The notes under the pieces were generated by a model. That model ran no database searches and was not told where the DNA came from. It saw only the letters and a list, made by a program, of their open reading frames with translations. Position numbers and translations under genes: made by a program. A stretch of DNA of 23,551 nt from a virus. Below are positions 8,939 through 18,325 of this stretch, in pieces. Where the stretch lies: the IMG/VR virus record IMGVR_UViG_3300046836_000185, positions 1-23,551 of that record. The stretch is one strand, 5' to 3'. Numbering within the stretch: the stretch's first letter is position 1; every line of letters starts with the position of its first letter.

Positions 8939-9792
8939 CCGCCCATCTCGTCGCCGACGAAACAGGACTCGTCCACGCGACTGATCAAAGTGGCAAGGTT
9001 CATACCAACCACGGCCATCCGATCGTCGGCACGCTGACGGATGCCACGGGAACGCTGGCGGCGACCGAAGCGCGCGACGCTGCAGCTATCGCCGGCCTGG
9101 TCGGCCTCATCGGTGGGCTGGCTGCGACAGACGGCGCGGATGTTGCTGCATTCAGCGGACTGGCCGGCGCCAAGGGCACGCTTGTTGCAACGGAAGGCGC
9201 TGACACGGCTGCCTTCGCGGGCACGGTTGCGGCGCCTGCCATTACGGGCACGCTCGCCGCAACGGAAGCGCCGGATGTCTTTGCTGCGACCGGCATCGTT
9301 GCGTCGGCCGGCGAGATTGTCGGCGTGCTGGCGGCGACCGAGGCGGCCGACGCTGCGGCATTCGCCGGTGCTGTCGAGCAGGCACCCGTTATCGGTGCCG
9401 GCGGCGGCGGCGCCTACTATCGGCCCGCGCGGCCATTGCCAGTCGTGGGCTACGGCGAAGGCATCCTGCCCCAGCTCGAGGGCGAGGCGCATGGCGTCGT
9501 CGTCGCTGCCAGCAACGCAACGGCGCTGTTGCCCGGCTTTGTCGCCGCCGCGGCTGGCTCGGCTGGCGCTGCCGGTTCCAGTGCGGCCCTGCTCGTGCTC
9601 AAGGCGGCAGCGAGCGGCGAACGTGGCGCAAGAGGATCGACCGATGCGGTGCTCGATTGCCGGGGCGCGGGCCTAGGCACGGCCGTTGCCTGCGGCCGAG
9701 CCTCGGGCGCGATTGCCAAGCTCGAGGCCAACGCGATCGGCCGGTACGACGACGACGAGGCCGCCGCTATCGTATGGCTGCTGGCAGCATGA
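8935..9792 (+). CDS. repeat-containing phage protein, probable virion surface component
   Basis: 285 aa. After a short N-terminus (HLVADETGLVHATDQSGKVH), residues 40-154 are five imperfect repeats of 21-25 residues with the core (T/G/V)L(A/V)AT(E/D)xxDxxAxxG. Then a glycine-rich hinge (GAGGGGAYYRPARPLPVV) leads to a C-terminal Ala/Gly-rich domain ending in YDDDEAAAIVWLLAA. The repeats look like short beta units and vary mainly in the loop after the core. Repeat proteins of this type occur in rhizobial prophages near tail or head-fibre genes. Function unknown; surface exposure and adhesion are reasonable inferences. Overlaps the collagen-like gene by ATGA. Confidence 0.72.
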   Translation: MTAHLVADETGLVHATDQSGKVHTNHGHPIVGTLTDATGTLAATEARDAAAIAGLVGLIGGLAATDGADVAAFSGLAGAKGTLVATEGADTAAFAGTVAAPAITGTLAATEAPDVFAATGIVASAGEIVGVLAATEAADAAAFAGAVEQAPVIGAGGGGAYYRPARPLPVVGYGEGILPQLEGEAHGVVVAASNATALLPGFVAAAAGSAGAAGSSAALLVLKAAASGERGARGSTDAVLDCRGAGLGTAVACGRASGAIAKLEANAIGRYDDDEAAAIVWLLAA

Positions 9793-10526
9793 CTTCTCGC
9801 CCGGAATATTCGCTGCTTGAAGGGCTGAGTACCTGCCTGACGATGGCGCAACGCGCGCTCGTCGAGGTGCGGGCGCTCGCGCGCATTCCGGGGCCCGAGG
9901 GCAAGCGCGGCGCTGCCGGCGAGCGCGGGGAAGCCGGTAAACCTGGACCCGCAGGGCCGGCCGGGCGTGCCGGCATCGATGGCAAGGATGGCGAGACGGG
10001 GCCGCAGGGCAAGCCGGGCAGCCTGCCGGTGGTGCGCGATTGGGAACCCGACCTCGTCCATTACGCGGGCGCCGTCGTCGTCCATGCCGGCGCCACCTGG
10101 CAAGCCGCCCGCGACACCGGGCAGGCGCCGGGACATGCGGACTGGATCTGTGTGGCGCGACCCGGCCGCGATGCTGTGCTGCCGAAGGTGCGCGGCACCT
10201 GGAGCGAGGTCGAGACCTATGCGGCGCTCGACATCGTCGCGCTCGGCGGCTCGAGCTTCATTGCCCGCCGCGCGGCGCCTGGCCCATGCCCGGGTGAGGG
10301 CTGGCAACTGATCGCCTCAGCGGGCAAGCCCGGCCGACCGGGACCAAAGGGCGATCCAGGTGAGACGGGTTCACGCGGGCTGCCAGGACCGGCGGCACCG
10401 CTGATTGTCGGTTGGACGATCGATCGCAAGACCTACACCGCCACGCCGATCCTGTCCGACCAGAGCAAAGCGCCGCCGCTCGAGCTGCGCAGTCTGTTCG
10501 AACAGTTTCACGACGAGGCGCGCTGA
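9789..10526 (+). CDS. collagen-like phage protein with carbohydrate-binding-like middle domain
   Basis: 245 aa; start chosen at ATG 9789 because it overlaps the previous stop and the upstream extension is a shadow. After an N-terminal helix (LLEGLSTCLTMAQRALVEV), residues 35-76 are 14 uninterrupted Gly-X-Y triplets (GPE GKR GAA GER and so on), predicted to form a trimeric collagen helix. Residues ~85-175 contain two copies of a pattern typical of small chitin/carbohydrate-binding modules (xxVHYAGAVVVHAGATWQA and GTWSEVETYAALDIV...GSSFIA...GWQL). Residues 179-202 are eight more triplets (GKP GRP GPK GDP). A short C-terminal domain (VGWTIDRKTYTATP) follows. Collagen-like segments are known in phage fibres and other trimeric surface proteins, so a thin head or tail fibre is likely. 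Confidence 0.8.
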   Translation: MTSRPEYSLLEGLSTCLTMAQRALVEVRALARIPGPEGKRGAAGERGEAGKPGPAGPAGRAGIDGKDGETGPQGKPGSLPVVRDWEPDLVHYAGAVVVHAGATWQAARDTGQAPGHADWICVARPGRDAVLPKVRGTWSEVETYAALDIVALGGSSFIARRAAPGPCPGEGWQLIASAGKPGRPGPKGDPGETGSRGLPGPAAPLIVGWTIDRKTYTATPILSDQSKAPPLELRSLFEQFHDEAR

Positions 10527-11173
10527 TGGTGGACGTGTGGGTCAAGGTGCTGCAGCCCGCCGACAGCTACGCGCTGCTGACGCTGGACGAGCTTAAGGCC
10601 ATTCTCAAAATCCCGCCGACCGACACCAGCGAGGACGCACAATTGCAGGTGTATATCGATCAGTACAGCGACGTTATCGCAACCATGTGCCAGCGCGTGT
10701 TCGCCTATGAGACCGTTGCGGAAACCTGGCGCGGCGACCTGCCGCCGTTCGATGCCCCGCGCTTGTTCCTGACGCACTATCCGATCGTCGATGCCGACAT
10801 TGTCTCGGTGGAATCGCCGCGCGGCACCGTGCTCGACCCGGCGAGCTATGAGGTCGAGAACGCATCCGGCAAGCTGCGCATCGAAGGCGCCTGGTCCGAG
10901 CCGATCACCGTGACGTACAGCGGCGGCTATCAGTTGCCGGACGCCGCGCCGCCGGCCATCAAGGCGGCGGCCGGGCTGTTGATCCAAGCGGCGCGGCTGC
11001 AGGCGCGCATGGCCGCCACAAACGGCGTCCGGTCGGTCATGCACGACAACACCCGCGTGCAATATTTCGATCCAGTGCAGATATTCGGCAAGGACGGACT
11101 TGCCGGGCCGTTGCAGACCGCAACCAATACCGTCAACGCCTTGCTCAATGCCTACACGCGATTTTATGTCTAA
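10526..11173 (+). CDS. head-tail connector protein, gp6-like
   Basis: 215 aa from ATG 10526 (TGATG overlap with the previous stop; longer in-frame extensions upstream are shadows). The N-terminal helical block LTLDELKAILKIPPTD with DAQLQVYIDQYSDVIATMC matches the HK97 gp6/adaptor family, which forms the ring under the portal. The middle is a beta-rich insertion (FLTHYPIVDADIVSVESP and YEVENASGKLRI), often seen in longer members of this family. The C-terminal helix (APPAIKAAAGLLIQAARLQ) also fits. Its gene overlaps the first gene of the glycosyl/methyl-transfer cassette. Confidence 0.85.
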   Translation: MVDVWVKVLQPADSYALLTLDELKAILKIPPTDTSEDAQLQVYIDQYSDVIATMCQRVFAYETVAETWRGDLPPFDAPRLFLTHYPIVDADIVSVESPRGTVLDPASYEVENASGKLRIEGAWSEPITVTYSGGYQLPDAAPPAIKAAAGLLIQAARLQARMAATNGVRSVMHDNTRVQYFDPVQIFGKDGLAGPLQTATNTVNALLNAYTRFYV

Positions 11174-11807
11174 GCCGTTTTGGTCGGTGCCGCGCGAATG
11201 GCCGGGCGAATGCTGTTTCATCGTCGCCGGCGGGCCATCGGTGCTCGATCACGACCTCGAGCAGTTGCGCGGCCGGCGCGTGATCGTCATCAATTCCAGC
11301 ATTCACGCGGCGCCGTGGGCCGACTTTCTCTACTTCGCGGACTGGCGGTGGTGGAACGAACCGGAAAACCGCGCGGCAGTCGCCAACTTTGCCGGTCGTG
11401 TCGTCACCACCTCGCAAATGGTTCGGGATGCAAAAGTCCTAATCTGCCGCAAGACCAATCCGCCGGGACTGGCGCAGGCGCCTGATTGCCTGACGCAGAA
11501 ATGGACATCGCTCACCGGGGCGACCAATCTGGCGTCGCATCTGGTGGGGCGCGGCGGAACGATCGTGTGGCTCGGCGCCGATGGCAACCCCGCCGCCGAT
11601 GGCCGGGTCTGGCATCACAAGCCGCATCGCTGGGGGCCGAAGCCAGAACGCTACGACCGGCACCGCGGCGACATCGCCACCTTGGTCGAGCCGCTGCGGA
11701 TCATGGGCATCACACTGTTCAACGCGAGCCCGGACAGCGCCTACGCGGATCTGTGGCCGGTGGTGAGCCTGCAGGACGCGCTGATGCGCGAGCGGCGGGC
11801 CGCGTGA
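11166..11807 (+). CDS. Rossmann-like phage protein, DUF115/MAF-like, possible nucleotide-sugar-related function
   Basis: 213 aa from ATG 11166, which overlaps the connector stop. The opening CFIVAGGPSVLDHDLEQLRG (GGPS at 22-25) followed by RVIVINSSIHAAPWADFLYF and ADWRWW resembles the Rossmann-like core of DUF115/motility-accessory-type proteins, where a glycine/serine loop binds a nucleotide or nucleotide-sugar. Later landmarks are TSLTGATNLASHL, IVWLGADGNPAADGRVWHH and LFNASPDSAY. The resemblance is to fold-level landmarks only. It is first of three genes, all overlapping, placed between connector and head-closure genes. A role in sugar transfer is inferred from its neighbours; an alternative is a structural adaptor that kept an enzyme fold. 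Confidence 0.6.
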   Translation: MSKPFWSVPREWPGECCFIVAGGPSVLDHDLEQLRGRRVIVINSSIHAAPWADFLYFADWRWWNEPENRAAVANFAGRVVTTSQMVRDAKVLICRKTNPPGLAQAPDCLTQKWTSLTGATNLASHLVGRGGTIVWLGADGNPAADGRVWHHKPHRWGPKPERYDRHRGDIATLVEPLRIMGITLFNASPDSAYADLWPVVSLQDALMRERRAA

Positions 11808-12748
11808 CTGTCGTGTTCGACGGCATGCACGGGCTCGGCGACAACATCCACCAGCGCGCGGTGGTGCGCCGCGTGCTCGCGACGCCGGACGCGGACGTGT
11901 GGCTCACAACGCCGTGGCCGTGCCTTTATCACGACCTCGTCGGCGAACGGTTTCATGTGTTGCCACCGGCGCGAACGACGCTGCGGACGCAGCGCAAGAA
12001 TGTCCGGCGCGAGCGCGAGCACTACACGCGCCAGCGTCCACCGCTGGAGCCGCCACGGAAAAAGAAGATATGGTACGACGCGCAGAACATTCGCGCGACG
12101 AACTCTATCCTCGGCGGCATGCTGCGCTATACGCTGCATCAGCCGCTCGAGGGCGCCGACTTCTCGTTGCCTGTGCCCGAGGCATGGCGCGCGAAGGCCA
12201 TGGCGCGCATCGCGCGGCGGCCCGACCGCCCTATCATGGTGCTGCGACCGCTGGTCAATCGCACCGAGTGGAACGGCTGCGATACCCGCAATCCCGACCC
12301 GAGGACTTACGCGGCGCTCTACCGCGCCATCCGTTCGCGGTTCTTCGTCGTGTCGATCGCCGACCTGGTCGACGGCGTTGAGTGGATTTGTGGCGACCAC
12401 TTGGATGCCGATGTTTACCTGCACGCCGGTGAGCTGGACGCCGAGGCCGTGATCGGCTTGATCGCATCCGCCGCGCTCACCTTCTGCTCGCCCGGTTTTG
12501 CGCTGATCGCGTCGCAAGCTGTCGGAACGCCGGTGGTCAGCGTGTATGGCGGACGCGAATCGTCGCGCTTCTATGAGTACGGCGCACGCTTCGCGCCCAC
12601 GCTCGGCATCGATCCGGTGCGGCCGTGCGACTGCTTTCGCCCCAGGCACCTGTGCAACAAGCACATCGATCTCGACCAGGCTCTCGCTCGCATCTCGCTT
12701 TTCACGGATACCCATGTCGCTGCCGACCGTTCCCGCATCGCGGTTTGA
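11804..12748 (+). CDS. GT9-like glycosyltransferase (heptosyltransferase-fold)
   Basis: 314 aa from GTG 11804 overlapping the previous stop (GTGA); longer upstream extension is a shadow. The N-terminus VVFDGMHGLGDNIHQRAVVR has the GLGD loop of ADP-heptose:LPS heptosyltransferases (family GT9). The C-terminal half has the acceptor/donor signature-like segment SPGFALIASQAVGTPVVSVY (229-248) followed by YGGRESSRF, and a cysteine cluster CDCFRPRHLC (C275, C277, C284) as in several GT9 members. A basic stretch RTQRKNVRRERE sits at 61-72. These features support glycosyl transfer from a nucleotide sugar; donor and acceptor cannot be named. Being in the late operon, it is made with the virion proteins, suggesting action on virion or on the host surface late in infection. 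Confidence 0.7.
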   Translation: MTVVFDGMHGLGDNIHQRAVVRRVLATPDADVWLTTPWPCLYHDLVGERFHVLPPARTTLRTQRKNVRREREHYTRQRPPLEPPRKKKIWYDAQNIRATNSILGGMLRYTLHQPLEGADFSLPVPEAWRAKAMARIARRPDRPIMVLRPLVNRTEWNGCDTRNPDPRTYAALYRAIRSRFFVVSIADLVDGVEWICGDHLDADVYLHAGELDAEAVIGLIASAALTFCSPGFALIASQAVGTPVVSVYGGRESSRFYEYGARFAPTLGIDPVRPCDCFRPRHLCNKHIDLDQALARISLFTDTHVAADRSRIAV

Positions 12749-13310
12749 CGTGCGGCCGATCGATTGGGCCGGGTTGCCGCGGCGCTACATGAACCCTGGC
12801 GAATTGGAGATGCTGATCGCGCTGATGCGCAGCGTGTCGCCGCGCCACGTGATCGAGATCGGTGTTAACATCGGCCGCACCGCCAAGGCGATCCTGGCCA
12901 ACGTGCCGGGCATTGAGCACTACACCGGAATCGACGTGCCGCTTAGCTATGTGCCTGCCAAGGCGGTGCAGCGTCACGAGGTGCCGGCCAATCCGGGCGA
13001 GCTGGTCAACGACGACGCGCGATTTCATTTGCGGGTGCGGCCGCGCGGGTCGCTCGATCTGACACATTGGGCGCTGCCTTCCGCCGACGCCATATTCATC
13101 GATGGTGATCACGGGCGCGAGGCAGTCGAACACGACAGCGCGCTGGCGACGGAGGTCGTTCGGCGGCCGGGCATCATCATCTGGCACGATTATCATGACC
13201 TCGGCACGGTGGACGTGAAACCGGTGCTCGATCTCTTGCACCGCGGCGGTCGCAACATCGAGCACGTCGAGGGCACCTGGCTCGCATTCGAGCGGCTGCC
13301 GGCAAGCTGA
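12714..13310 (+). CDS. class I SAM-dependent methyltransferase (Methyltransf_24-like)
   Basis: 198 aa from ATG 12714, which lies 35 bases inside the preceding gene. Motif I is VIEIGVNIGRT (residues 47-56; E48-I-G), the acidic residue at the end of strand beta2 is D74 (YTGIDV), and the post-I/IV region has DAIFIDGDHGREAVEHD (D130, H133) and IIIWHDYHD (D159). This DGDH pattern is typical of Methyltransf_24 enzymes that modify small molecules or sugars, often in saccharide clusters. It follows a GT9-like gene in the same overlapping set, so methylation of a transferred sugar is a sensible guess. The substrate is unknown. Confidence 0.8.
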   Translation: MSLPTVPASRFDVRPIDWAGLPRRYMNPGELEMLIALMRSVSPRHVIEIGVNIGRTAKAILANVPGIEHYTGIDVPLSYVPAKAVQRHEVPANPGELVNDDARFHLRVRPRGSLDLTHWALPSADAIFIDGDHGREAVEHDSALATEVVRRPGIIIWHDYHDLGTVDVKPVLDLLHRGGRNIEHVEGTWLAFERLPAS

Positions 13311-14114: not shown

Positions 14115-14642
14115 ATGCCCACGTCACCTAATGTTGCAAACTATCACATCGGCAAAGGTATCGTCAGCTTCAAGGAAGTCGGTGCTTCGACCTTCATCGA
14201 CCTCGGCAACGCGCCGAAGTTCATCTACACGCCGGCGGTCACGAAGAAGGAACACTTTTCCGCACGGGAGGGCGTCAAGACCAAGGACTTCACCGCCATC
14301 ACCCAGATCGGCGCGACCATCAAGGTAACGCTCGACGAGATCACCGGCGATAATCTTGCCATGTTTGCGCTTGCCACGTCGGGCACCGACACCGATGGCA
14401 ACGTCACCCTGTCCGGTCTGTCGAAGGCCGAGTTCACCGGTGACATCAAGGTGGTTGGCACCAACGATATCGGCCAGCAGGTCGACTTCCTCGCTACCGT
14501 CTCGTTCATCCCGGCCGGCGACTTCAGCTTCATCACCGACGCGGACGATTTCACGCTGATCGAACTCGAGGCCGAGGTGATGAAGAGCACGGCTGGCGAC
14601 TTCGGCATCTGGACGATCCGCGACGAAACACCATCGGCATAA
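14115..14642 (+). CDS. major tail tube protein
   Basis: 175 aa; GAGGAG (14100-14105) precedes the ATG, as expected for an abundant product. Sequence landmarks: NYHIGKGIVSFKEVG, FIDLGNAPKFIYTPAVTKKE, HFSAREGVKTKDFTAITQ, ATIKVTLDEITGDNLAMFAL and a C-terminal FTLIELEAEVMKS. These match tube proteins of siphoviruses, which polymerise as stacked hexamers around the tape measure. It lies between terminator and tail-chaperone genes, the standard order. Confidence 0.85.
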   Translation: MPTSPNVANYHIGKGIVSFKEVGASTFIDLGNAPKFIYTPAVTKKEHFSAREGVKTKDFTAITQIGATIKVTLDEITGDNLAMFALATSGTDTDGNVTLSGLSKAEFTGDIKVVGTNDIGQQVDFLATVSFIPAGDFSFITDADDFTLIELEAEVMKSTAGDFGIWTIRDETPSA

Positions 14643-14652
14643 GGACAACAGC

Positions 14653-15120
14653 ATGGCCGACCTATTGGACATAGCACCGTCGACGGCGGTCGAGGTGGTC
14701 AAGATCGATGGTGCGCGTGTCAAGGTGCGCGGCGTCTCGGTCGATGCCATCGCGTCGATCGTCGCGCGGTTTCCCGAGCTGAAAATGCTGGTCAACGGTG
14801 GCTTGGGCGATAATTTTTTGCCGCGGCTGATCGAGGGCTGCGGTGCGGCGATCGGGCCGATCATCGCGGCCGGGTGCGGCCACCTCGCCGACGAGACCTA
14901 TGAGCAGCATGCCGCCAAACTGCTACCGGAGCACCAGATGAAATTTCTCAAGGCCATTTTCGGACTGACCTTCCCAAACGGGATCGGCTCTTTCGTCGAG
15001 GCGCTGACGAGCCTCATCGGCGGGGGCGAAGGGGCAAAACCCGTGAAGGTCCGCTTGCGGAAATCGCACTTGCCGTCGTCGCCCTCGGCCGAAGCGGATT
15101 CCCGCCCGACTATGCAATGA
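14653..15120 (+). CDS. tail assembly chaperone (gpG-like), zero-frame product
   Basis: 155 aa from ATG 14653 (AAGGA upstream). The first ~128 residues are well-formed: ASIVARFPELKMLVNGG, IGPIIAAGCGHLADETYEQH, and HQMKFLKAIFGLTFPNGIGS. The end of the ORF (KPVKVRLRKSHLPSSPSAEA) turns into proline/serine-rich, low-complexity coding typical of a frame left after slippage. The size, position before the tape measure, and the open -1 frame overlapping its 3' end fit the G/GT chaperone pair of siphoviruses, which guide tape measure and tube assembly. Confidence 0.8.
   Translation: MADLLDIAPSTAVEVVKIDGARVKVRGVSVDAIASIVARFPELKMLVNGGLGDNFLPRLIEGCGAAIGPIIAAGCGHLADETYEQHAAKLLPEHQMKFLKAIFGLTFPNGIGSFVEALTSLIGGGEGAKPVKVRLRKSHLPSSPSAEADSRPTMQ
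15022..15048 (+). promoter_or_regulatory. probable programmed -1 ribosomal frameshift region in tail chaperone
   Basis: The codons here read GGG GGC GAA GGG GCA AAA CCC in the zero frame. The candidate slippery step is at GCA-AAA (15034-15039), where the A-site Lys tRNA can re-pair perfectly with AAA in the -1 frame; the P-site re-pairing is poor, so this is not a canonical heptamer. C-GGG-GGC at 15021-15027 is a second possibility. After this point the -1 frame becomes strongly protein-like while the zero frame becomes low-complexity. The exact slip site is therefore uncertain, the shift itself fairly likely. Confidence 0.55.
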
Positions 15121-15269
15121 CGCTAACGCCGCGTCAGGTTGCGGCCTACCTCGATCTGGGCGCGCAGCTCGACCGGATCGAACGGGCGAACGATCTCGCG
15201 ATCACGGCGATCGGGGCGCAGGGCGATGCGAAGGCGATCGAGAAGACACTCAAGGAATTGGGCGGGTGA
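15117..15269 (+). CDS. tail chaperone T-region (50 aa alone, or end of a ~205-aa frameshift product)
   Basis: From ATG 15117, which overlaps the chaperone stop (ATGA), this reads 50 aa: TPRQVAAYLDLGAQLDRIER then NDLAITAIGAQGDAKAIEK. The same frame is open upstream to 14904 and, from about 15048, encodes PLAEIALAVVALGRSGFPPD directly before this ATG, very like the T-part of G-T chaperones in alphaproteobacterial phages. There is no ATG, GTG or TTG in this frame between 14904 and 15116, so that upstream part can only be made by a -1 shift from the 14653 gene. The fusion would be about 205 aa. Independent expression of the 50-aa form by coupling is also possible. Confidence 0.7.
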   Translation: MTLTPRQVAAYLDLGAQLDRIERANDLAITAIGAQGDAKAIEKTLKELGG

Positions 15270-15281
15270 AATGGTTGGGCG

Positions 15282-15503
15282 TTATCTACCACCCTTGCGT
15301 TCGCTGGCCGCGCGGCCACCGCAGCGATGACCAAGGGCATCGATGTCATTCGGTTTTTGGCATCGTCCGGTCGCAGATGCTGAAGTCGCAATATGATTGC
15401 CGGCTTGGTGCGGGTTTGGCTGGTGATTGGTCACCCTTCCATCACCACAAGCAGCCAGTGAAAGCACTAATCCGATGCCGCATGTCCAGCATATGAATTT
15501 CAT
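15282..15503 (-). CDS. small lipoprotein, probable phage moron
   Basis: 73 aa on the minus strand, inside a longer minus frame whose upstream part is a shadow of the 15582 gene. The start chosen gives a clear lipoprotein signal: MKFIC, hydrophobic GIGLVLSL, and a lipobox LAAC with Cys19 as the lipidated residue; Gly at +2 allows outer-membrane sorting. The mature part is short, polar, and ends with CQKPNDIDALGHRCGGRAAS, a two-cysteine motif (C48, C61) that I recall from small secreted proteins of Bradyrhizobium-like bacteria and their prophages. It is convergent with the tail chaperone gene (12 bases apart) and divergent from the next tail gene. Opposite orientation within a late operon suggests it is transcribed separately, as in a lysogen. 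Function unknown. Confidence 0.72.
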   Translation of the reverse strand: MKFICWTCGIGLVLSLAACGDGRVTNHQPNPHQAGNHIATSASATGRCQKPNDIDALGHRCGGRAASERKGGR

Positions 15504-15581: not shown

Positions 15582-16118
15582 ATGAACCTCGTCTTTTCCG
15601 CGCAAGAAGGGGCCATGCGGCAACTGATCGACGAGATCGAGAGCCAGATTGACGAGGCCAGGGCTGGCGCCGTGCAGGACGTGGCCGCGCTTGCGGTAGC
15701 ACAGGGCCGGGCGAATATCGCATCCGCCGGCTTTCCCGCATCGTGGCAGGCGGGGCTGAAGTCGAAATTCTTCCCGAATGAGGGCGGCGATCCGGCGGCT
15801 CTGATCTTTGATACCACGCCATTCGCGGGAGTGTTCGAGCGCGGCGCCACAATCGCCGGCCGGCCGCTGCTGTGGTTGCCGCTCGAGCGGAACCTGCCGG
15901 CGGGCATTCATACGCCGCGCGCATACGGAGGCAGGTTGGTGTCGGTAAACGTCGCAGGCAAGCCGCCACTGCTGTTCGACGCGGCCAGGCGGGAGTTGGG
16001 GCCGCTGTTCGTGGGCGTGCGCCAGGTCAATATCCGCAAGCGGTTCGATCTCTATCGCATTTTTGCACAGGCAGCGGCGCAGATGCAGGAATTCTATAAC
16101 AAACGGATCAAGGGTTAA
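15582..16118 (+). CDS. DUF6441-family phage protein, neck/tail assembly region
   Basis: 178 aa from ATG 15582; an ATG at 15615 (MRQLIDEIE) is an alternative start. Features include an N-terminal helix, FPASWQAGLKSKFFPNEGGD, AALIFDTTPFAGVFERGATI, PLLWLPLERNLPAGIH, and a late block LFVGVRQVNIRKRFDLYRI followed by EFYNKRIKG. These are the landmarks of the DUF6441-type proteins that sit just before tape-measure genes in many alphaproteobacterial prophages. Function is unassigned; position suggests tail completion or assembly. Its stop overlaps the tape measure start (TAATG). It is separated from the chaperone gene by the antisense lipoprotein gene. Confidence 0.75.
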   Translation: MNLVFSAQEGAMRQLIDEIESQIDEARAGAVQDVAALAVAQGRANIASAGFPASWQAGLKSKFFPNEGGDPAALIFDTTPFAGVFERGATIAGRPLLWLPLERNLPAGIHTPRAYGGRLVSVNVAGKPPLLFDAARRELGPLFVGVRQVNIRKRFDLYRIFAQAAAQMQEFYNKRIKG

Positions 16119-18325
16119 TGGCCACGATCAGCCAGCGCATCAGCCTCGATGGCGCCGAGCAAGTCAAGAAACAGCTTGCCGAGATCGGCGACGCTGGCGA
16201 AAAGTCGGTAACCCAAATCCAGACTGCCGCCGACAAATCGGACGTATTCAGCAAGCTCGCCGAATCGGCCGCGAAGCTGAGCGACGCGATTGCGCCGCTC
16301 TCGGCCGCGATTGCCAAGCTGACGGAGGCCACAGGCGGTGCCGCAGAGTCGGCGCAGAAGTTCGGCGAGGTTGTAGATGCGACCGCCGAGGGCCTTACCA
16401 AGCTCGCGGATGAAGGCAGCAAGGCCGCCGAAGCCATCAAAGCCATCGATGATGCAAGCCAGAAGGCGAACGAAAACGTTACGAAGTCGGCGGAGACTGC
16501 CGACAAGTCTTCAACTTCTCATGTCGGCCTCGCTCTCGCGGCGGTCAAGGCCGGCGCCGCGGTGGTGTCGGTCGGCCAGGCAGCGACGGCGACTGCCGCC
16601 GCGGTGGAGGGCGCCGCGGCGGCGACCACGACGGCCGGGGCTTCTATTATAGGGGCAACCGCGGCGGTCGGGACGTTCGCCATTGCTCTTGGTAGTGTAC
16701 TCGCTGGCGCGATTGGTGCGGTCGTGGCTGGCTTGGCAACCGTTTCTGCTGCGGTAGAGAAGGCTACCAACGAATATGAACAACTGAATCACACCCTGCT
16801 AGTGTTGTCGCAGACAACTGCGACCTCTTTTGAATCCTTACAACTCGGTACCGCGGCGCTCGAGCAGATCGGCATCAAGACGGAAACCGCGCGCAACGCG
16901 GTTGTGAAGCTCGATGAAACGCTGAAAGGTTTAGATCCTGGCGAGAAGCTCAAGGCATCGGCAGACGCGGTACTGCAGGCCGAGAAGGCGATGTTGGAGG
17001 CACAACTGGCCGCTGCTGGGCTTCGCGACAATTGGAGAGAGGCGGTTATAGCGGGCCAGCGCCTTGCGTTCGTCAATCAACAACTCGCCGATGGGCTGAC
17101 CGCACAGGGGCAAGCCGATAAGGCCGCAAGCGAGGCATCCACGCAATTGGCCACTGCCCAAGCCAATCAACTCGAGAAAGTCATTGCGCTCATCAAGCAG
17201 ATCGAAGCGGGGCAGAAGGGGATCCAGTTCGACGAGGCGACGACGGCGGCGACCAAGATCGATGCGCTCAATGTCCGGCTCAAACAGGTGAAGGATACGA
17301 CCGGCGACGCCCGGCAGGAGTTCTTGAAGATCATCGCCAATATCGCATCGCTCAAGGATGCCATTGCGTTCGGAGCGACGGTCGGGTTTTCCGCCGACGA
17401 CGTTGATCGCATCCGCCGGTTCGGCGGCGAAGCCAGCAAGATCCCCGACCTGTTCCAACGGATCAGCGAGTCCGGCGCGCTGATCGGCCCGGCGGTCAGC
17501 CAATCTCTCGACGAGATGCGCACCAGCACGCAGAACGTCGAGAATGCCTGGACACGGTTGATGGCGACGTTCGATACGACGGTTTTCACCCGGATCGACG
17601 CCGCCATCAGCACGACGTTGAACAACATCGCGGCGATGGTCCTCAACGCGACGGCAGCCGTTTTTGAAGCTGTTAATACGGCGTTCGATCAAATCGGGAC
17701 GCTGCTTGCTCATTCCGTCGAGGGCTGGGGCCTCATTTTCAGCAGCCTCGGCAGCATGATCGAATCTGCGTTCAGCGGCATCTGGGACAGTTTGACCAGC
17801 GGCGCCTCGGCGGCCATCAACATGGTCTCCGGCCTGATTGATAGGCTGATCGCCAAGCTCAACGCGGCGTGGGAGACGCTCAAGAACATCGTCGGGCTGG
17901 GCGGCAGCCCTGCCACCGGCGGCGGCGGTTCCGGCTTCGCGGCCGGCGGCCTGCTCGGCGGCAGCGGCAGCGGCACGTCGGACAGCAACCTCGCCTGGGT
18001 GTCGCGCGGCGAGTACATCACGCCTGCGCGGGCGGTGGCGCAGCCCGGCGTGCTGGCGTTCCTCGAGGCGCTGCGCCGCTCGGGCGGCAACCTAGCCGCC
18101 GTGCTCGACGGCATGGGCCGGTTTGCGCTCGGCGGCCTGGTGCGAACGCCCATCGCGATTCCGGCGTTCGCCGGCGGCGGCATGAACCATGTCACCATCC
18201 AGTTTCCCGGCCTGCCCGAGATTACAGGCTTGCGCGCGTCGTCTGGCGTGGTCGACGAATTGCGCCATGCCGCGGCGCTGGCGCAGGTGCGCTCGGGCGG
18301 CCGAAAGCCGAGCCGGTATTCCTGA
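16118..18325 (+). CDS. tail tape measure protein
   Basis: 735 aa, the longest tail protein in the window, directly overlapping its neighbours. Residues 1-130 are charged helical repeats (AEQVKKQLAEIGDAGEK and similar), typical of coiled-coil tape measures. Residues ~135-213 are a long Ala/Gly/Val-rich hydrophobic stretch likely to enter the host membrane during DNA entry. The middle is helical and polar. The C-terminus has the usual glycine-rich block (GGGGSGFAAGGLLGGSGSG) followed by LAWVSRGEYITPARAV, found in many siphovirus tape measures. At about 0.15 nm per residue it predicts a ~110-nm tail. No lytic enzyme domain is seen. Confidence 0.9.
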   Translation: MATISQRISLDGAEQVKKQLAEIGDAGEKSVTQIQTAADKSDVFSKLAESAAKLSDAIAPLSAAIAKLTEATGGAAESAQKFGEVVDATAEGLTKLADEGSKAAEAIKAIDDASQKANENVTKSAETADKSSTSHVGLALAAVKAGAAVVSVGQAATATAAAVEGAAAATTTAGASIIGATAAVGTFAIALGSVLAGAIGAVVAGLATVSAAVEKATNEYEQLNHTLLVLSQTTATSFESLQLGTAALEQIGIKTETARNAVVKLDETLKGLDPGEKLKASADAVLQAEKAMLEAQLAAAGLRDNWREAVIAGQRLAFVNQQLADGLTAQGQADKAASEASTQLATAQANQLEKVIALIKQIEAGQKGIQFDEATTAATKIDALNVRLKQVKDTTGDARQEFLKIIANIASLKDAIAFGATVGFSADDVDRIRRFGGEASKIPDLFQRISESGALIGPAVSQSLDEMRTSTQNVENAWTRLMATFDTTVFTRIDAAISTTLNNIAAMVLNATAAVFEAVNTAFDQIGTLLAHSVEGWGLIFSSLGSMIESAFSGIWDSLTSGASAAINMVSGLIDRLIAKLNAAWETLKNIVGLGGSPATGGGGSGFAAGGLLGGSGSGTSDSNLAWVSRGEYITPARAVAQPGVLAFLEALRRSGGNLAAVLDGMGRFALGGLVRTPIAIPAFAGGGMNHVTIQFPGLPEITGLRASSGVVDELRHAAALAQVRSGGRKPSRYS

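Follow-up and report, generated by a model that had tools for sequence, protein, structure and literature searches.

A putative −1 frameshift signal at a canonical slippery heptamer in the G/G-T type tail assembly chaperone gene of a metagenomic virus

The DNA stretch analysed here, referred to below as the window, is a metagenomic virus record of 23,551 bases (IMG/VR IMGVR_UViG_3300046836_000185). In its tail gene region, an open reading frame at 14653–15120 coding for 155 amino acids is overlapped by a long open stretch in the −1 frame, which follows a stop at 14901–14903, extends over 14904–15269 and has the ATG at 15117 as its first and only ATG/GTG/TTG codon. A sequence-only reading had described both frames, correctly as it proved, and had proposed a −1 frameshift yielding a G-T type chaperone of about 205 residues beside the 155-residue product; family, gene position, phase and −1 coding constraint in relatives all agree with this proposal. 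It had, however, assigned the slip to a non-canonical site between 15021 and 15039. Sequence comparison makes it very probable that the gene encodes a tail assembly chaperone of the lambda G/G-T type, with canonical −1 frameshifting at C_CCA_AAC (14973–14979) stimulated by a downstream hairpin. The system is of a known kind, and its frameshift signal is here corrected to a classic heptamer.

Gene order and protein products

The G-T region is located between the genes for the major tail protein and the tape measure protein, with one DUF6441 gene intervening. The genes and domains, all on the plus strand, are as follows.

14115–14642, + strand: major tail protein gene, upstream of G (PHROG_807, 5e-18)
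14653–15120, + strand: G gene, zero frame, short product of 155 aa, tail assembly chaperone (PF23789, PHROG_5260, match to 2ob9)
14979–15269, + strand: −1 frame after the putative slip, 96 residues and a stop, comprising the linker RDRLFRRGADEPHRRGRRGKTREGP and then the T domain
15048–15266, + strand: T domain, conserved, 73 aa in the −1 frame, modelled as entirely helical (model pLDDT, PHROG_13355)
15582–16118, + strand: DUF6441 gene, between G-T and the tape measure protein gene (PF20039, 1.8e-11)
16118–18325, + strand: tape measure protein gene (PHROG_6090, 1.2e-15)

The zero-frame product has 155 residues, and the predicted fusion would consist of 109 G residues and 96 residues from the −1 frame, 205 in all, a length that is the same for either proposed slip position. 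G matches the Pfam family PF23789 (Pre_tape_measure, “Pre-tape measure protein”) with an E-value of 2.4e-10 and 40.8 bits, above the curated cut-off of 27, and PHROG_5260, of the tail category, at 2.5e-07. Structural models of G and T were built from 73 and 61 sequences, respectively, chosen from the 80 diverse relatives described below. The G model (mean pLDDT 81.6) contains a helix at residues 111–122, after the slip point, which would be missing from the fusion. Among solved structures, VIA-align ranked as nearest to this model 2ob9, the tail assembly chaperone of HK97 (Z 6.2 and rmsd 4.2, with 88 aligned residues and 15% identity), and YqbN (3klu, Z 5.2), Z values that, being below 8, can reflect a common arrangement and alone would not settle the family; Foldseek gave an E-value of only 4.9 against 2ob9. 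Matches of the G model to predicted structures of three known proteins had Foldseek E-values of 3e-04, 6.1e-05 and 6.7e-04 at 16–25% identity. A search of the G sequence against solved structures returned nothing significant (best E 0.61). The Pfam assignment and the fold matches identify G as a tail assembly chaperone.

The C-terminal end of T matches PHROG_13355, a family of unknown function, at 1.8e-12. The T model (mean pLDDT 89.3) consists of four helices, the first two of which, including the helix of residues 2–15, lie before residue 24, the position of the ATG, so that the modelled fold would need a part that only a frameshift could supply. With the T sequence as query, solved structures yielded nothing beyond chance matches to helical proteins, among them designed repeats (alphaREP), and a fold search of BFVD gave no significant match.

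The window contains several other features. An antisense open reading frame (15282–15503, minus strand, 73 aa, MKFICWTCGIGLVLSLAACGDG...) lies between T and the DUF6441 gene. It shows a signal like that of lipoproteins and a Cys-rich end that is conserved, GPCQxPxDxDAxGHxCGGRAASERKGG; related open reading frames occur on the same strand in loci L104, L174, L091 and L106 (42–57% identity), and it is possibly an independently expressed accessory gene. A sub-threshold Rfam match to p27_CRE at 15289–15336 was taken as chance. In the structural gene region, a plus-strand open reading frame at 9657–10526 carries collagen-like Gly-X-Y repeats (GPEGKRGAAGERGEAGKPGPAGPAGRAGIDGKDGETGPQGKPG). Between the connector-type and tail-terminator genes lie three plus-strand open reading frames (approximately 11100–13310), whose products look, by eye, more like sugar- or methyl-transfer enzymes than like structural proteins.

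Phase and coding constraint of the −1 frame

Relatives were collected by three scans of viral contigs, with G, with the −1 peptide and with a G alignment. Both G and T are present in 221 of the 223 loci; L161, with neither part detectable by profile, and L214, which stops 2 nt beyond its G match, were excluded. The same contigs were often captured more than once, so the loci contain only 114 unique sequences over the region, and thinning at 8% nucleotide difference left 80. One locus, L127, was set aside from the counts with n = 113 and checked separately, since it has two in-frame copies of CCCAAAC, one at the expected place and an extra one at codon 41 of its G (around position 2731). Translated searches of a phage collection (50,697 records) with G or T gave no match, and a scan of genome contigs gave a single partial T-like match of 14 residues (L161); PF23789 was not detected in that genome or in 14 controls.

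In all 221 loci holding both parts, T is in the −1 phase relative to G. The 80 loci fetched by G alone (L002–L081) are all within a set in which 160 of 160 show this phase, and therefore the phase is not an artefact of searching with T. The −1 reading is thus conserved in the homologs, and its conservation extends to the level of coding. Substitutions counted in disjoint pairs of relatives indicate that PLAEIALAVVALGRSGFPPD, the −1 peptide, is genuinely encoded: from the beginning of the T domain (15048, hereafter T0) to the ATG they fall on −1 codon positions 1, 2 and 3 as 124/58/232, and after the ATG as 316/237/743, both −1 coding patterns. Upstream of the heptamer the counts are 1043/347/211, the pattern of zero-frame coding, −1 codon position 1 being the third position of the zero frame. 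Between T0 and the ATG, 14.7% of the residues differ in the −1 frame versus 25.3% in the zero frame (52 pairs), which bears out the earlier impression that the −1 frame is protein-like. By this comparison, the −1 frame is under amino acid constraint upstream of its only start codon, and T overlaps G in this frame with no start of its own upstream.

Column by column, the constraint switches from the zero frame to the −1 frame at approximately 15048–15056. The sequence-only reading had called the zero frame low-complexity after about 15040; this is partly right, except that zero-frame constraint persists to about 15056 (K-V-R-L) and the zero-frame stop is conserved. The codons CGC TTG at this boundary (15050–15055) were considered as a slip site and rejected, because neither codon re-pairs in the −1 frame; their conservation is explained as marking the place where zero-frame constraint on G ends and the T fold begins.

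Probable slip site, predicted downstream hairpin and ATGA overlap

The putative signal elements within the overlap, also on the plus strand, are listed below.

14973–14979, + strand: slippery heptamer C_CCA_AAC, CCA being codon 108 and AAC codon 109 of G (in frame in 114/114)
14980–14986, + strand: spacer of 7 nt between heptamer and hairpin
14987–14997, + strand: 5′ arm of the predicted stimulatory hairpin, GCTCTTTCGTC
14998–15024, + strand: hairpin loop, 27 nt, within which an inner helix may form in the window
15025–15035, + strand: 3′ arm of the hairpin, GGCGAAGGGGC, Shine-Dalgarno-like but pairing with the 5′ arm
15117–15120, + strand: ATGA, an invariant −1-frame ATG (114/114) overlapping the zero-frame TGA stop of G

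The heptamer C_CCA_AAC fits the classic X_XXY_YYZ pattern in the zero frame and is therefore a canonical one; on slipping, base 14979 would be read twice. It is present in frame in all unique relatives, as CCCAAAC in 110 and as CCCAAAT in 4 of the 114. Codon CCA is unchanged in 114/114, with no synonymous differences versus 19.5 expected in 53 disjoint pairs. In the same pairs, synonymous change along G falls suddenly at TTC CCA AAC and stays low afterwards: the observed/expected ratio over seven codons is 0.96 at three codons before the codons flanking CCA and 0.54–0.73 around and after it, the gene median being 1.04. Over the 130 nt upstream, the next best conserved in-frame heptamer is retained in 92 of the 114 sequences and overlaps CCCAAAC; around T0, the sole comparable in-frame heptamer is GCAATGA of the stop/start overlap. 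The −1 frame from the heptamer to T0 (69–96 nt) is open in 113/113 relatives and in L127, i.e., in 114/114. When the zero frame was re-drawn synonymously, this interval stayed open in 46% of cases on average; the +1 frame is open over it in 4/113, and equally long −1 intervals taken upstream of the heptamer are free of stops in 27–82%.

The distance from the heptamer to the zero-frame stop is 138 nt in the window (14979 to 15118) and 132–159 nt in the relatives. Mean slip-to-stop distances of 26 and 36 nt are given for two tail-chaperone sets in the PRFect paper (PMC10885494), and the distance found here exceeds what is usual in this class of genes. As a consequence, G and G-T share only residues 1–109, and the short G has about 46 residues of its own. 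Classic heptamers can be overlooked when they are well above 100 nt away from the zero-frame stop. Among the matches listed for CCCAAAC together with frameshifting in the literature, none is about a phage, as judged by title.

A stretch of RNA structure is predicted a few nucleotides past the heptamer, as in canonical −1 signals. The 11-bp hairpin of the window has a predicted energy of −27.3 kcal/mol (z −2.19; 8 of 200 shuffles equally stable), and its loop is 27 or 30 nt long in most relatives. Across the 80 diverse relatives, 62-nt windows starting 0–7 nt past the heptamer have a mean z of −2.0 to −2.3, versus −0.9 to +0.4 for windows missing the hairpin. In a protein-anchored alignment of 112 of the 113 sequences (L105 being omitted for a gap), 88.6% of cells pair, falling to 43–64% when the partner is slid by 1–4 nt. 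An ungapped set of 60 of the 114 sequences, those of equal heptamer-to-T0 length and distinct there (75 before removal of duplicates), gave 87.1% versus 42.6–57.1%. Covariation in the 60-sequence set is modest: two-sided changes occur in 6 of 11 pairs versus 2.6 after shuffling, further pair types number 12 versus 11.5, and the 8 cells with two-sided changes are not above the slid versions (2–17). In the group of L051, L054, L216, L220 and L222 both arms are changed, CCGCC standing with GGCGG, and in L105, L112, L122, L123, L132 and L158 the arms pair in a shifted register or elsewhere. RNAalifold found no structure on a free MAFFT alignment of the 80 sequences, because this alignment spread 107 nt over 152 columns, and 50-nt windows missed the hairpin because it spans 49–52 nt; the 62-nt windows and the anchored ungapped set both recovered it. 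The predicted hairpin is well supported by these comparisons, and its exact pairing in every relative is less so. A Shine-Dalgarno stimulator GAAGGRG just upstream of 15036 was also considered and rejected, since these bases form the hairpin's 3′ arm.

The principal alternative, which we regard as improbable, is the slip proposed by the sequence-only reading, either at a single-codon A_AAR (GCA_AAA, 15034–15039) or at C_GGG_GGC (15021–15027). An A_AAR within the last 33 nt before T0 (near 15036) is found in 109/114 and makes a second, weak candidate, the preceding Ala codon being GCA in 87/114; A_AAG is described as a known minimal slip site, used by IS1222 at G_CGA_AAG (PMC5009743). Nevertheless, GCA_AAA itself is present in only 16/114 and C_GGG_GGC in 1/114 unique relatives, and A_AAR is lost in 5/114 though T stays conserved. 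A slip at 15021–15039 also leaves unexplained why no −1 stop interrupts the stretch back to the heptamer in any relative and why CCCAAA is invariant, and one at GCA_AAA does not account for a hairpin whose 3′ arm ends where GCA_AAA begins. The conserved slippery site and suppressed synonymous change for which that reading suggested aligning relatives do exist, but they begin at 14973–14979: the classic heptamer it had found lacking lies in frame about 60 nt upstream, outside the stretch 15000–15130 it had put forward for testing.

Another possibility is that T is a separate small gene, translated from ATG 15117 by translational coupling at ATGA with no frameshift, the upstream −1 conservation being incidental. 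The ATGA overlap, with TGA as the zero-frame stop, is retained in 113/114, and gene callers evidently start T near this ATG, PHROG_13355 having 58 positions and aligning from residue 4 of the 50-aa open reading frame. Against this, coding constraint on the −1 frame is as strong before the ATG as after it (14.7 and 18.9% of residues differing, respectively), the modelled T fold includes a helix ahead of the ATG, and an SD-like motif precedes ATG 15117 in 0/113 relatives versus 86/113 for the ATG of G. Since the heptamer and hairpin would also be left unexplained, we consider this very unlikely. That the frame break is a sequencing error or marks a pseudogene, as could be imagined from one metagenomic virus record, has a negligible probability, being contradicted by 221 loci, independent or nearly so, all of which show the −1 phase, both frames being conserved.

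The overlap itself has further regularities. The codon after ATG 15117 is ACG, AGC, ATG, ACA, AAC, AGG, ACC or AAG, its first base always being A, and the codons before this ATG end in T and A without exception, despite the existence of other −1 synonyms. In nearly all relatives the last zero-frame codons (15111–15120 in the window) are NTG CAA TGA (M/L-Q-stop), which points to selection on this end of the zero frame. A tandem second zero-frame stop (102/114) was considered as a sign of selection for strong termination, and no claim is made from it because the Leu codon concerned is in most cases CTG, which is itself common. We tentatively raise, at low probability, an arrangement of three products: G, G-T made by −1 frameshifting, and a free 50-aa C-terminal T fragment made by termination-reinitiation at ATGA, with selection on the last zero-frame codons. 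According to the model, a product reinitiated at ATG 15117 would be without the first helices of T.

In the mechanism that we favor, slippage at C_CCA_AAC, most ribosomes would read G through to the TGA at 15118 and produce the 155-aa protein. Some would stall against the hairpin (14987–15035) with CCA and AAC inside and slip back by one base, so that these codons are replaced by CCC and AAA. They would then continue with CGG GAT CGG... to the TGA at 15267, yielding the 205-aa fusion of G residues 1–109, an Arg-rich linker of about 25 aa and the helical T domain. By analogy with the family, G may coat the tape measure protein, and T may recruit the major tail protein. Phase, −1 coding constraint, heptamer invariance, the open linker and the predicted hairpin emerge from comparison of the relatives; that slippage occurs in cells, and at what rate, is inferred from the family.

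Comparison with known systems

The slippery heptamer of phage lambda is GGGAAAG, whereas that of the window is C_CCA_AAC. The window also differs from lambda in that its slip would occur 138 nt before the stop of G, leaving about 46 residues in G alone, and in the presence of the DUF6441 gene before the tape measure gene. Otherwise the arrangement resembles gpG/gpGT of lambda, described as lying close to the tape measure gene and as giving, from a single start, a short G and, by −1 slippage at a heptamer, G-T (PMC5009743). For phage KL1, one gene is likewise reported to intervene before the tape measure gene (PMC3483164). For a metagenomic phage group (221 loci, 114 unique sequences), the present analysis adds a clear frameshift signal.

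The closest comparison in terms of protein family is with phages AH2 and BcepNazgul, whose G-T genes are annotated as joined CDS. Like the G of the window, AH2 gp56 and BcepNazgul G belong to PF23789, with E-values of 2e-35 and 3.9e-36, respectively, versus 2.4e-10 for the window. The T domain of the window has no significant profile match to T of AH2 or BcepNazgul. For AH2 a −1 slip at AAAAAAG is predicted in the AH2 paper, and for KL1 one at GGGAAAC, possibly followed by stem-loops (PMC3483164). Profile alignment of the window G with AH2 G alone is weak (probability 4.5), and that with BcepNazgul G extends over 107 columns with an E-value of 5.1e-05. Within the G gene of BcepNazgul (L225, approximately 36305), an in-frame CCCAAAA at TFEDAGGPKEFF is aligned with the heptamer region of the window, which is our own reading and not the annotation of that genome.
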